Positions 6,391-55,082 of a stretch of 57,941 nucleotides of DNA are shown in pieces. The notes under the pieces are model-generated. The model made no database searches and was not told the origin of the DNA. It saw only the letters and a program-made list of their open reading frames with translations. Location: positions 1 to 57,941 of the forward strand of contig CACJRQ010000007.1 in NCBI GenBank assembly GCA_902595885.1, given 5' to 3'. The translations under genes and the position numbers were made by a program. Positions within the stretch are counted from its first letter, which is position 1; every line of letters begins with the position of its first letter. The stretch is from an uncultured Pelagibacteraceae bacterium (GTDB lineage Bacteria; Pseudomonadota; Alphaproteobacteria; Pelagibacterales; Pelagibacteraceae).

Positions 6391-7395
6391 GTGAAAACAC
6401 CTCTACTTAAAAAACAAATTGTTAAGATTTTTCAAAAATATGGTTTAAGTAAAGATCATGCTATAATTTCTACTAATGCATTAATTAATGCAGAATTAGT
6501 TGGTGCATATGGACATGGTTTATCAAGACTTAAAATGTACTGTGATCGAATTTCCAAAAAAGTGATTAATCCAAAACCAAAAATTAAAATTAAAAAAATA
6601 TCTTCATCTATTTCGCATATAGATGCAAAAAATAGTATTGGTTTTGTAGCAGCTGATCTGGGTATTAAAACTGCAATTAAGCATGCACAAAAAACTGGTA
6701 TAGGAATGGTAGCGGTTAAAAACAGTGGTCACTATGGTTTATCTGGTTATTACGCAGAACAAGCGGTAAAGAAAAATTTAATTACAATGATCTATACAAA
6801 TGCTCCACCTGCAGTTGCTCCCCATGGTGCTTTAAAATCTTTATTTGGAACAAATCCAATTTGTTTTGGATCCCCTACCGGTTCTAAAATTCCTTTTATT
6901 TTAGATACATCGATTTCAGTAATTAATAGAGGCAAAATTAGAGTTGCAGCAAGAAACAATCAATCTATTCCTGCGGGAGTTGCTTTAGATAAATTTGGCA
7001 AACCAACTATTAATGCAAAAAAAGCGTTGGCGGGTGTACAATTACCAATTGCAGGTTTTAGGGGTTCAGGGCTTGCTTGGATGGTAGATATTTTAAGTGG
7101 AGTTTTAACTGGAGGAAATCATGCAGGAAGAGTTAAAGATCCATTTGATGATTTTTCAGGTCCTCAAAATATTGGACATTTATTTATTACTTTTAAAGCA
7201 AATTTATTTCAAAAAAATTATAACCAACGAATAAAAGATAATATTAAAACAATAAAAAAACTTCCTAAAATAAAAGGTATTAAGGAAATAATGTATCCAG
7301 GACAAAATAAATACGCCCGGTATAAAAAAAACTCAAAAAAAGAAATTTCTATACCGGATATAATAAAGAAAGATTTGGAAACCTTAATAAGTTAA
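6391..7395 (+). CDS. Malate/L-lactate dehydrogenase family oxidoreductase (Ldh2/YlbC type)
   Basis: NAD(P)-dependent oxidoreductase of the family that includes malate, L-lactate, ureidoglycolate and 2,3-diketogulonate dehydrogenases; 334 residues. Family hallmarks visible are GAYGHGLSRLKMYC near residue 34, the catalytic-type histidine in NSGHYGLSGYYAEQA (H114), PHGALKSLFGTNPICFG near 148, and GFRGSGLAWMVDILSGVLTG near 227. It starts with GTG immediately after the preceding TAA, so it is probably translated by coupling. Its last 12 bases overlap the end of the convergent small gene. Together with the ALDH and epoxide hydrolase it suggests oxidative breakdown of a diol or hydroxy acid. Confidence 0.85.
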   Translation: MKTPLLKKQIVKIFQKYGLSKDHAIISTNALINAELVGAYGHGLSRLKMYCDRISKKVINPKPKIKIKKISSSISHIDAKNSIGFVAADLGIKTAIKHAQKTGIGMVAVKNSGHYGLSGYYAEQAVKKNLITMIYTNAPPAVAPHGALKSLFGTNPICFGSPTGSKIPFILDTSISVINRGKIRVAARNNQSIPAGVALDKFGKPTINAKKALAGVQLPIAGFRGSGLAWMVDILSGVLTGGNHAGRVKDPFDDFSGPQNIGHLFITFKANLFQKNYNQRIKDNIKTIKKLPKIKGIKEIMYPGQNKYARYKKNSKKEISIPDIIKKDLETLIS

Positions 7396-7581
7396 CATCG
7401 TTAGAGCACCCAAAGAAACGATAACAGATGATAAAATTATTGTTCGTTTAACTTTTTCTTTCTTCTTTTCTTCTAGAAGTCTTTGCTTTAGAACATCCAC
7501 GTTAACCCTTTTTGGAGTTACGACATATTGAGAGGGGGTCTCTACAATCTCGGATGTTCTATTTAAGCTTTCTGTACTCAT
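7384..7581 (-). CDS. Small single-pass membrane protein, unknown function
   Basis: 65 residues: a polar, lysine-rich N-terminal half (LLEEKKKEKVKR) followed by one hydrophobic segment near residues 47-63, so an N-in tail-anchored topology is likely. The last 12 bases overlap the convergent Ldh2-family gene. It is divergent from the two-winged-helix regulator, which may control it. No family recognised. The clean start, amphipathic plan and position argue for a real gene, but it is short. Confidence 0.6.
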   Translation of the reverse strand: MSTESLNRTSEIVETPSQYVVTPKRVNVDVLKQRLLEEKKKEKVKRTIILSSVIVSLGALTMLTY

Positions 7582-7651
7582 ATTTCGTTTATAAGTTTAA
7601 TTTTAATCATTATTAGTCTAGTTTTTACATACTAGGGTTGTCCAAAATGGG

Positions 7652-7680
7652 TTGACTCTTATTTTACTATTGTTCATATT
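7652..7680 (+). promoter_or_regulatory. Candidate sigma-70 promoter and direct repeats before the regulator gene
   Basis: TTGACT at 7652-7657 and CATATT at 7675-7680 are separated by 17 bases, a plausible -35/-10 pair for the gene starting at 7698. The repeat GGGTTG occurs at 7635-7640 and 7649-7654, the second overlapping the -35, so autoregulation by the regulator is possible. This is pattern recognition only. Confidence 0.35.
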
Positions 7681-7697
7681 GGGTTTTTTTTAAAAAC

Positions 7698-23921: not shown

Positions 23922-25433
23922 TTAAACTCTTTTCTTACCTTGAACAACCCTATCAAGAATTAACGCAACAAATAAAATTGCAACACCTGCTAAAATACCT
24001 TGTCCAACATTTGCATACTGAAGTGCTTCTAAAACATCTTGTCCTAGTCCTTTTGCACCTATTAGAGATGCAACTACTACCATTGCTAAGCTTAACATTA
24101 CTGTTTGGTTTACACCTGCTAAGATGGATGGTGTTGCTAAGGGTAAATCAACTTTTCTTAAAAGATACCATTTAGAAGCTCCATAAGCGATTGCGGCTTC
24201 TCTAATTGTTTCAGGCACACCTCTTAATCCAAGAACTGTTAATCTAACTACAGGTGTCCCTCCAAAAATCATTGTAATTATAACCGCAGCGACCTTCCCT
24301 GTTCCAAAGAATGCAATTACTGGGATCATGAAGACAAAGGCTGGCATTGTTTGCATAAAATCCATTATTGGTCTTATCATTGAATAAAATCTTTGACGTC
24401 TTGCGCAAAAAATTCCAAGTGGAATTCCAATAACAATACTTAATACAGCAGCAGTTCCAAGAAGAGCTAAGGTAGTCATGGCTTTTACCCAAAAACCTAA
24501 AAATCCCATGTAACATAAAAATCCTGCTGAATAAATTGCAGCTCTTGGGCCTGCAGCTAGTCCTGTTAAAGTTACTATGGTAGTAATGATTACTATCCAT
24601 GGAGTTTTAACAAATAGCAATTCTAAAAAATCTAATACCGATCTAATACCAATAGTGATTGCTGTAAATAAAGCATCTCCTTTTAAAACAGCATAGTCAA
24701 AAATAGTTTCTACCCATTTTATTGAAGTAAGTCTTATGTCTGGATGAGTTGGAAAATCATCCATTATAGTAATAACACCTGGAAAACTATAATGCACAAC
24801 TGAGAAAAACATAATCACTGCTGCAAAAATTGTACTAGAGATAAAGTTCTTAGTTTGCATTCCTGGTCTTATTGTTTTGTCAGATAACCATTCTGAATAT
24901 CTTTTTTCTAATACAGAATTAGCAAGAATCCCTTGAACTATTTTAATCGAAATTAATAAAGCAATACCAAATATTGTGATCCAAATTGCAGATGCTTCAA
25001 TTCTTACAACTTCATCAATGTATCCCTGCATTGCATCTTCTAAGGATTTAATGTTACGTTTATAGACATCAACTTTATCTGGATTGTTAGTAATAGCTGC
25101 TTCTAACTGTTTGTTTCTAAATGCAATTGTAGATTCAACCTGTTTTATTTTTTCAACAGCATCTTTGGTAATATTCCCAAATAAACCTCTTATAATTTGA
25201 ACAACTGAGAATGTTTCAATTATCAAAAATGCTAATGCCCAATTCCATATATTTCTCATTCCAAACCAAATTGGACCTAGAATTCCTGCATATAAATTAA
25301 ATGAAAAAGAAAATGAAGGTTTGCTTCCAATTTTTTGAAACTCCTTAATGTAATATTCTGGATTTGATTTAACAAAGTCAGTTATTAACTCAGATCTAGT
25401 AGGGTTATTAATTTGTTTATTCTCCATCACCAC
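23922..25433 (-). CDS. proW: Glycine betaine/proline-type ABC permease (ProW) with long N-terminal extension
   Basis: 503 residues, about 150 longer than E. coli ProW. The C-terminal domain is standard, including KAMTTLALLGTAAVLSIVIG, RPIMDFMQTMPAFVFMIP and the EAA-like IREAAIAYGASKWYLLRKVD (near residues 408-427). The N-terminal part has membrane segments around a polar, charged stretch (residues about 95-140) that could form a short coiled coil. It overlaps proV by 17 bases. Part of an osmolyte importer. Confidence 0.9.
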   Translation of the reverse strand: MVMENKQINNPTRSELITDFVKSNPEYYIKEFQKIGSKPSFSFSFNLYAGILGPIWFGMRNIWNWALAFLIIETFSVVQIIRGLFGNITKDAVEKIKQVESTIAFRNKQLEAAITNNPDKVDVYKRNIKSLEDAMQGYIDEVVRIEASAIWITIFGIALLISIKIVQGILANSVLEKRYSEWLSDKTIRPGMQTKNFISSTIFAAVIMFFSVVHYSFPGVITIMDDFPTHPDIRLTSIKWVETIFDYAVLKGDALFTAITIGIRSVLDFLELLFVKTPWIVIITTIVTLTGLAAGPRAAIYSAGFLCYMGFLGFWVKAMTTLALLGTAAVLSIVIGIPLGIFCARRQRFYSMIRPIMDFMQTMPAFVFMIPVIAFFGTGKVAAVIITMIFGGTPVVRLTVLGLRGVPETIREAAIAYGASKWYLLRKVDLPLATPSILAGVNQTVMLSLAMVVVASLIGAKGLGQDVLEALQYANVGQGILAGVAILFVALILDRVVQGKKRV

Positions 25434-53411: not shown

Positions 53412-54269
53412 ATGAAAAATATTGGATTTATTGGTGTTGGTTATATGGGCTACGGGATAGCCAAAAATATTTTAAAACATAAAAACAATCTTTTTGTGAT
53501 TGCTAATAAAAATAGAAAACCAATTGAGAAAATTATCAGCGATGGAGCTGAAGAATTAAAATCTTTTGAAGATTTTTCTAGTAAAAATTTAGATGCGATG
53601 TTTATGTGTGTTACCAATACACCCATAGCAAAATCTATATCAGAAAAAATTTCTAATATTTTGGATAACAAAACTTTAATTATTGATATCACTACACATA
53701 ATAAAACTGGGTCAATAGAAACAGAAGCAATATTTAAAGCAAAAAATATTAATTATGTTGAATGTCCAGTAATGGGGGGACCCGTTCAAGCAGAGGAAGG
53801 TATACTAGGGGGGATTGTTGGAGCATCAGATGAAAATTTTAAAATTGCTGAGCCATACTTTAATTTTTTCTGTAAAGAATATTTTCACTTTGGACCCGTT
53901 GGTATGGGAGCAAAATCTAAACTTTTAAATAATTTTTTATCCCTTGGAAATGCTGCTTTAGTTAATCATTTAGCTAAAAGTGCTACAGAAATGGGTTTAG
54001 ATTTAAAAAAAGTATTTGATGTTGCAAAACTTGGTTCTGGAAACTCTGCAGCACTTAATAGGGTTTTTGACAATCTGTTAAAAGGAGACTTTACTGGCTT
54101 CAAATTTACAGCAAGTAATTCAGTAAAAGATTTAACTTATATTCAAGATTTATTAAAAGAATTTCCTGAAGCTGAAAAAGTTGCTGAAGTAAATAAAAAT
54201 TATTTCCAAAAAGCTGTTGATGACGGTTATGGTGAAAATTTTATTAGTGAATTGATAAATAAAAAATAA
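53412..54269 (+). CDS. NAD(P)-dependent beta-hydroxyacid dehydrogenase (GarR/HIBADH family), second copy
   Basis: 285 residues. Rossmann motif IGFIGVGYMGYGIAKNIL, substrate motif ECPVMGGPVQAEEGILGG (near residue 117) and catalytic lysine in GAKSKLLNNFLSLG (near 170). Distinct from the copy at 44261 (low similarity outside motifs), so it may act on another hydroxy acid. Last gene of the uxaA unit, before the structured convergent gap. Confidence 0.87.
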   Translation: MKNIGFIGVGYMGYGIAKNILKHKNNLFVIANKNRKPIEKIISDGAEELKSFEDFSSKNLDAMFMCVTNTPIAKSISEKISNILDNKTLIIDITTHNKTGSIETEAIFKAKNINYVECPVMGGPVQAEEGILGGIVGASDENFKIAEPYFNFFCKEYFHFGPVGMGAKSKLLNNFLSLGNAALVNHLAKSATEMGLDLKKVFDVAKLGSGNSAALNRVFDNLLKGDFTGFKFTASNSVKDLTYIQDLLKEFPEAEKVAEVNKNYFQKAVDDGYGENFISELINKK

Positions 54270-54390
54270 TTTTAGGAAGTAATTTAAGTTACCGGGAATC
54301 TACTAAAGCACTAGGTTGTATTCAATAAATATATTTACTCAAAATTAAAATAAATTAATTGAAATTGTGTTAATTATAATTACCCTTTTT

Positions 54391-54548
54391 ATAGAAGGAG
54401 GTTTATGTTAATACTTTCACCACCTGATACTTAGCTGAAAAGCTTTTCACTTGAAAAATATAACGAAAAATAAAATCCTCTCGGATTTAAATGCCAAAGA
54501 GGCGATACAAGGGAGCTCTTTAGGTATACACTTAAAGAGCGAACCCTT
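54391..54548. ncRNA. Candidate structured RNA in a 285-base convergent gap
   Basis: The gap 54270-54554 lies between two convergent genes and holds no credible long gene. On the + strand: AAGGAGGT (54395-54402), a GAAA-loop hairpin AGCT-GAAA-AGCT (54433-54444), AAATCC-TCTC-GGATTT (54473-54488), and an extended stem made of AAGGG/CCCTT (54509-54513 with 54544-54548) enclosing GCTCTTTA/TAAAGAGC (54515-54522 with 54533-54540). On the - strand, CCTCT/AGAGG (54498-54502 with 54477-54481) followed by ATTTTATTTTT could end the transcript of the downstream gene pair. I cannot match it to a named RNA family. The left part (54270-54390) shows nothing clear. Confidence 0.4.
54405..54434 (+). other. Nine-codon ORF behind a full anti-Shine-Dalgarno complement
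   Basis: AAGGAGGT (54395-54402) is the full complement of the 16S tail; two bases later an ATG opens the ORF MLILSPPDT, ending in TAG. Spacing of two bases is shorter than optimal, so translation is doubtful. It may be a leader peptide or simply part of the structured RNA. Confidence 0.2.
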
Positions 54549-54554
54549 TAAAAA

Positions 54555-55082
54555 CTAATTAATAGATTTTAATATTTTTAGTGGAAGTGGAGCTTCTGGG
54601 TATTTTCTTTGACACAACTTTTCATAGTTTTCACAAAAACTCATGATAGTTTTTTGAACTTCTTTTTTATCAATATTTGAAAGATTAAGCTTTTTAATTA
54701 ATTCACTGCAATTTTTTTCTAGTTCTTTTATTTGTTCTCCTGAAAAAAATTCTCCTGTTTCTATTTCCCAATAAGTGTCTTGAATTTCTTCATCGCTTAA
54801 ATCATTAAGTTTTTTCTGTAATAATTTGATAGTCTCGTCCTTAGTTTCCTTATCTCTCATAGGAGAATTCTTAAGTTTTCCAAGGCATTTATCTCTTAAT
54901 CCATCAATGAAATGAAAATAAGGTTTACCTTCTGAAAAATCTCTAAAGTGATTTGTATTAAAATATTTATCAATAGCTGTTTCTGTTGAAACCTTCTCTT
55001 TACCCTTAATTATAGCTACCTGAACATAAACTTCTTGGCTAATATATTCTTCAATATGATCTTTAACTTTTTGAGGTATCAT
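54555..55082 (-). CDS. Protein of unknown function, mostly helical
   Basis: 175 residues, no signal peptide or membrane segment. Highly charged, predicted helical throughout; four cysteines at scattered positions (for example CLGKL, NCSEL, FCENYEKLCQ). No motif I recognise. Thirteen bases downstream of the cytochrome c' gene, so probably co-transcribed with it, which may be a clue to a redox or haem-related role. Start ATG at 55082 has only a weak upstream site. Confidence 0.65.
   Translation of the reverse strand: MIPQKVKDHIEEYISQEVYVQVAIIKGKEKVSTETAIDKYFNTNHFRDFSEGKPYFHFIDGLRDKCLGKLKNSPMRDKETKDETIKLLQKKLNDLSDEEIQDTYWEIETGEFFSGEQIKELEKNCSELIKKLNLSNIDKKEVQKTIMSFCENYEKLCQRKYPEAPLPLKILKSIN

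Follow-up and report, generated by a model that had tools for sequence, protein, structure and literature searches.

The intergenic region at positions 54270-54554 of the window (the whole analysed stretch of 57,941 nucleotides, which comes from an AT-rich, 84%-complete genome of 1.12 Mb assigned to an uncultured member of the Pelagibacteraceae) is 285 bases long. It is flanked on the left by a gene for a dehydrogenase-like protein of 285 aa, with its stop at 54269, and on the right by a convergent gene for a 175-aa protein, with its stop codon at 54555. The initial annotation of this DNA described the region as the longest gap in the window, located between gene ends, and both statements hold: the two flanking stops border the gap, and the only longer candidate, 7396-7697 (302 bases), counts as a gap only under an 80-aa ORF cut-off. 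Most of that candidate is filled by an easily overlooked 65-aa ORF (MSTESLNRTSEIVETPSQ..., 7384-7581, minus strand). The plus strand of the gap folds better than its shuffles (z -2.86, with 3 of 200 shuffles equally good), and the minus strand folds less distinctly (z -1.44). The features recognised in the region are collected in Table 1.

Table 1. Parts of the element and of its upstream region in the window
Feature	Position	Strand	Remarks
Upstream box AGGTTGTATTCAA	54313-54325	+	Nearly invariant in the genus (alignments)
TTGAAA, promoter-like -35 box	54359-54364	+	Putative; 38 bases 5' of GGAGG
Shine-Dalgarno sequence AAGGAGG	54395-54401	+	At or adjoining the inferred RNA 5' end
Mini-ORF ATG TTA ATA CTT TCA CCA CCT GAT ACT TAG (MLILSPPDT*)	54405-54434	+	Coding signature in relatives
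H0, stop-codon hairpin AGCU-GAAA-AGCU	54433-54444	+	Sequence varies; weakest helix within the genus
A-rich linker of variable length	54445-54472	+	Predicted mostly unpaired in relatives (alignments)
H1, hairpin AAATCC-TCTC-GGATTT	54473-54488	+	Covariation
H2, hairpin GCC-AAAGA-GGC	54493-54503	+	Helix 3 of the covariation test; also present in both other genera
H3, two-part hairpin AAGGG-a-GCUCUUU ... AAAGAGC-gaa-CCCUU	54509-54548	+	Covariation
Whole inferred RNA, about 155 nt	54395-54549	+	Covariance models R1 and R2 match the same extent

The assumption in the initial annotation that no promoter is needed between gene ends is wrong, given that a conserved promoter-like upstream region sits within the gap. 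In many relatives, AGGTTGTATTCAA is the left arm of an inverted repeat of about 23 bp, the right arm of which (TTGAATACAACC) contains TTGA; in the window's clade (54313-54382), only the left arm of this long repeat is kept. The distance from TTGA to the Shine-Dalgarno sequence is constrained, with 36-40 bases in nearly all relatives and 44 in the HTCC1062 group. This spacing is only suggestive of a transcript of the element's own; if TTGA belongs to a -35 box, the RNA would start at about the Shine-Dalgarno sequence. The upstream box may be a binding site for some regulatory protein. In the 8 genomes searched, AGGTTGTATTCAA with a nearby AAATA was found at the element only, and the box was therefore rejected as the mark of a regulon.

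A short ORF with a conserved end

The complement of the anti-Shine-Dalgarno sequence pointed out in the initial annotation is present and appears to be the ribosome-binding site of a conserved ORF of nine codons, so that the original reading of the gap as a structured RNA is right but incomplete: the RNA has a coding part as well. All 139 loci first examined possess an ATG that shares the frame of the conserved tail, with a variable separation of 18 to 21 bases between the Shine-Dalgarno sequence and the tail, and among 132 distinct sequences, 168 of the 169 ATGs located between these two landmarks are in frame. The peptides encoded by the 132 sequences consist of 6-10 residues, MSPPEI and MSPPET being at one end of the range and MLILSPPDT and MIMNLSPPDT at the other (the HTCC1062 peptide is MNLSPPDT, with the stop TAA). 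Length and N-terminus vary freely, and only the last four residues are kept, as P-P-[D/E]-[T/I]-stop: Pro-Pro followed by D or E is found in 131 of the 132 distinct sequences (one member has LPDT in place of PPDT), and the final residue is T in 130 and I in two.

Within the last five codons of the same 132 sequences, 96 of 105 departures fall at third positions, and five of the remaining nine replace one stop codon with another. The codon changes seen are CCA/CCG, CCT/CCA, GAT/GAC/GAA, ACT/ACA and TAG/TAA/TGA, and the main amino acid exchanges in the tail are D/E and T/I. As judged from this substitution pattern, the ORF is under coding constraint, with the qualification that base pairing could account for some of the conservation at Pro-Pro, the proline codons (CCACCU) also pairing, imperfectly, with the Shine-Dalgarno sequence (helix 1). 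Apart from H1-H3, no stretch other than the Shine-Dalgarno sequence with the ORF is conserved in every one of the three genera in which the element was detected. Stop-codon readthrough was considered and rejected given that three stop codons are in use and the frame that follows is not kept.

Hairpins and compensatory changes

Covariation was assessed in alignment A2 (45 sequences, aligned without structure), using 500 shuffles and a second control with the pairing partners slid by 1-3 columns. In A2, 96.2% of the cells are paired, 12 of 25 pairs are double-changed, and the number of double-changed cells is 64; the shuffles yielded 91.6% paired cells, 6.1 pairs and 16.7 cells, and none reached the A2 value, a comparison inflated by the relatedness of the sequences. 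With slid partners, pairing falls to 31-62%, and the double-changed pairs and cells number no more than 5 and 12, respectively, although this control is flattered because the structure was derived from the same sequences. The predicted structure finds stronger support in the double changes of H1 and H3 than in either control. In H1 (helix 2), 99.3% of the cells are paired and 4 of 6 pairs have changed on both sides (AU/GC/UA), and in H3 (helices 4 and 5), 94.2% and 99.4% are paired and 6 of 12 pairs have changed on both sides (GC/AU). The other two genera have the same hairpins with new sequences, including H2 with GNRA loops, and a clear hairpin of differing sequence right after the stop codon, in the place of H0. 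The GNRA hairpin of the initial annotation exists in the window, but relatives do not retain a GNRA loop in this position. The same annotation described the two-part stem at 54509-54548, which is real and among the best-supported helices.

An Rfam scan and a search for compensatory base changes had been proposed as checks on the unknown RNA. The compensatory changes are those described above; the scan (Rfam 15) identified no family above the gathering cut-off in the window or in the loci of 12 relatives, the best sub-threshold match being gltS on the minus strand (21.4 bits against a cut-off of 47.5 bits). ARAGORN detected no tRNA or tmRNA here, and a scan of the gap for intrinsic terminators found none, there being no U-run after H3.

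Distribution and genomic context

When 150 relatives were searched at the DNA level, about 35 genomes of the genus matched the gap over most of its length, each at a single site, with 66-94% identity. Two covariance models were used, R1, built from 42 sequences, and R2, built with divergent members added; the element in the window scores 155.7 bits with R1 and 151.8 bits with R2. The R1 model matches 169 of 399 genomes of the genus, including 38 of 57 near-complete ones; about one third of the latter lack a match, so the element is either not essential or has diverged there. The R2 model matches all six genomes of a second genus and two genomes of a third, with no match outside the family Pelagibacteraceae among 190 genomes spread over the class. 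The scores in the genus (66-173 bits) are far above background and those in the third genus are weaker (48-52 bits), despite which the ORF and the hairpins are visible there by eye; the E-values are rough because the calibration was short. The core pattern, Shine-Dalgarno sequence-gap-CCACCTGAYACTTAG, occurs in at least 118 contigs of a species-level genome collection, all from SAR11, and has no match in 2.9 million virus contigs. All named relatives that carry the element also belong to SAR11 (Pelagibacteraceae/Pelagibacterales). Some of the genomes are incomplete, and the sequences are related, so that none of these counts represents independent events.

The element is essentially single-copy. 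The one exception is genome G370, where a single contig (C11) carries two full-score copies in opposite orientation (1279-1435 and 25136-25292), perhaps through an assembly duplication; the other second hits are weak and antisense. A weak match in G458 (at 69007) was discarded as coding-like and devoid of the ORF and the hairpins, the better model placing the true copy at 162059.

The neighbours of the element are clade-specific (by gene names that are our reading of the sequences): a dehydrogenase and the 175-aa gene, a TauD-like protein and a methyltransferase, a photolyase and an aminotransferase, or a symporter and a cytochrome-like protein. The position is stable inside clades and differs between them, and genomes that keep the dehydrogenase gene without the element have an unrelated neighbour at that site. 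Of 106 distinct loci, 105 have a convergent downstream gene, the stop of which is a median of 124 bases away from the ORF stop, just beyond H3; in the single remaining locus, no gene could be recognised within the following 400 bases. Upstream genes occur in either orientation. Although several unrelated gene families fill the downstream place, the element is confined almost wholly to tail-to-tail sites. At the same dehydrogenase site in another genome (L221, G171:C6:24000-27500), an element is recognisable that has an altered Shine-Dalgarno sequence and lacks an in-frame ATG; it is apparently decayed, which suggests a recent loss in the G171 lineage.

Genome G462, which we take to be HTCC1062, carries the element at 762690-762859 (in a genome of 1,308,759 bases), and G012, presumably HIMB5, carries it at 794991-795148. 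The HTCC1062 copy falls inside an intergenic region, 762678-763012, listed in Table 1 of Meyer 2009 (PMC2704228), and this match of coordinates supports the identification of G462. Meyer 2009 assigned no RNA to the region, which was left unstudied (PMC2704228) because its 76 BLAST hits were under the threshold of 200. The SAR11_0636 element from the same work (HTCC1062 622388-622552, a three-stem junction) is a different one, as the present element lies at 762690-762859. The survey of HIMB5 in Stav 2019 reports at least three sORFs together with HRC-1 and HRC-2 (PMC6429828), and one of these candidates, detailed in the supplements, may be the present element (PMC6429828). No published function for the element was found, the Stav 2019 candidates being taken as they appear outside those supplements.

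Conservation, compensatory changes, the absence of an Rfam match and the changing neighbours all support the unknown structured RNA of the initial annotation. Two outcomes that the annotation had named as counting against it, a gap not conserved in close relatives and a simple bidirectional terminator and nothing else, were looked for and not found.

Possible function and comparison with known systems

The comparisons described above make it very probable that the element is a conserved RNA gene that is both coding and structured. Usefulness is to be expected of it because SAR11 genomes are streamlined (the median intergenic spacer in P. ubique is 3 bases; PMC5069961), and a single-copy, non-protein gene of about 280 bases that is kept across three genera should be useful. 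The best explanation for the observations as a whole, to which we attach appreciable but less than even confidence, is a free-standing, structured and translated Pelagibacteraceae RNA of about 155 nt with a pause-dependent fold and an output in trans. A fold that depends on a paused ribosome is proposed because PPD and PPE recur among the strongest pauses dependent on elongation factor P (EF-P) in E. coli (PMC4140641, Table 1), although most PPX motifs cause no strong pause in vivo (PMC4140641). The ORF carries such a motif, Pro-Pro-X with X being D or E, in all but one of the distinct sequences. EF-P is encoded in 10 of 10 genomes checked, whether the element is present or absent, and therefore provides no support from co-occurrence.

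The pause-gated mechanism, suggested by these motifs, is itself tentative. The transcript would begin with the Shine-Dalgarno sequence or immediately 5' of it, and pairing with the Pro-Pro codons would mask part of this sequence. A ribosome that starts on the mini-ORF would open this hairpin and would tend to pause where the ORF ends, at Pro-Pro-Asp/Glu, a motif of the class that needs EF-P. With the second proline in the P site and the usual size of the footprint, the paused ribosome would cover about 54408-54437, so that the Shine-Dalgarno hairpin and H0 would be opened while H1-H3 stayed folded, and ribosome-occupied and free forms of the RNA would result. As there is no target gene in cis, H1-H3 would be expected to give their output in trans, through protein binding or RNA stability. 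In short, this would be an autonomous RNA that reports the state of translation or of EF-P. The full version of this proposal, a trans-acting regulator and translation-state sensor, the folds of which are set by an EF-P-sensitive pause in its own ORF of 6-10 codons, is rather doubtful.

A role inside the ribosome is favoured over a released signal peptide because only the residues by the peptidyl-transferase centre are kept. Nevertheless, the element might be a micropeptide gene, with a functional peptide of 6-10 residues that, for example, binds the ribosome or a protein via PP[D/E]T and with hairpins that only stabilise or end the mRNA. The coding constraint on the C-terminal residues, the perfect Shine-Dalgarno sequence and the free-standing position agree with this possibility, which still appears rather unlikely: conservation limited to the last four residues is what would be expected of a motif acting in the ribosome, and the detailed covariation of the hairpins over three genera exceeds the needs of a mere 3' end. 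The free-standing position is also compatible with a base-pairing small RNA that incidentally contains an ORF, a dual-function molecule in the manner of SgrS, as are the length of about 155 nt, the structured 3' half and the A-rich linker, which could bind Hfq. However, the genera share no conserved unpaired stretch other than within the ORF, so that no common seed is visible, and this explanation is unlikely.

The remaining explanations account for fewer of the features. An orphaned leader peptide or attenuator, persisting as a relic or for the use of its hairpins after the loss of its gene, would explain why a Shine-Dalgarno sequence and a short ORF with a pause motif are followed by hairpins, all parts of an attenuator, but the next gene lies on the other strand in nearly all loci, next to many unrelated neighbours, and the conservation is too strong for a relic; we consider it quite improbable. 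A bidirectional terminator or 3' end of convergent genes would fit the nearly constant convergence of the downstream gene and the short distance to its stop, but H3 is not followed by a U-run, and a terminator accounts for neither the upstream box nor the Shine-Dalgarno sequence, the ORF and its reading frame, which makes this reading very unlikely. Finally, the differing positions between clades and the upstream inverted repeat might point to a small mobile or repeat element, the least probable of all these possibilities in view of the one copy per genome, with its single exception, and the stable position inside clades.

If the RNA does have a fold gated by translation of its own ORF, a mini-ORF of the stalling type without a gene in cis would uncouple ribosome arrest from the cis role that it usually has, and an EF-P-sensitive sensor of the translation state would exist in the most abundant marine bacteria. 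The EF-P prediction is open to a direct in vitro test. TnaC, ErmCL and MgtL, which are leader peptides or uORF attenuators with ribosome arrest, resemble the element in that a short ORF, preceded by a Shine-Dalgarno sequence of its own and conserved in the C-terminal residues next to the stop, is followed by hairpins. For the element, the comparative coding signature indicates that such an ORF is translated and that the residues ahead of its stop are conserved; the regulated same-strand gene that follows a leader peptide is missing, given the convergence in 105 of 106 distinct loci, and the element, unlike these attenuators, moves between neighbours as a unit. The tmRNA, with its tRNA-like domain and a resume codon that has no start site of its own, is likewise a structured RNA with a short ORF. 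Unlike tmRNA, the element has its own AUG and Shine-Dalgarno sequence and no tRNA-like part; the tmRNA of P. ubique is located elsewhere, near thyX (PMC2704228). With the dual-function small RNAs SgrS/SgrT and VcdRP (PMC8672173), the element shares a free-standing position, small size and the combination of coding and structure; in contrast to them, its ORF of 6-10 codons is located at the extreme 5' end, the conserved core is the ORF itself, and no conserved base-pairing seed is visible outside the Shine-Dalgarno sequence and the ORF across the genera.
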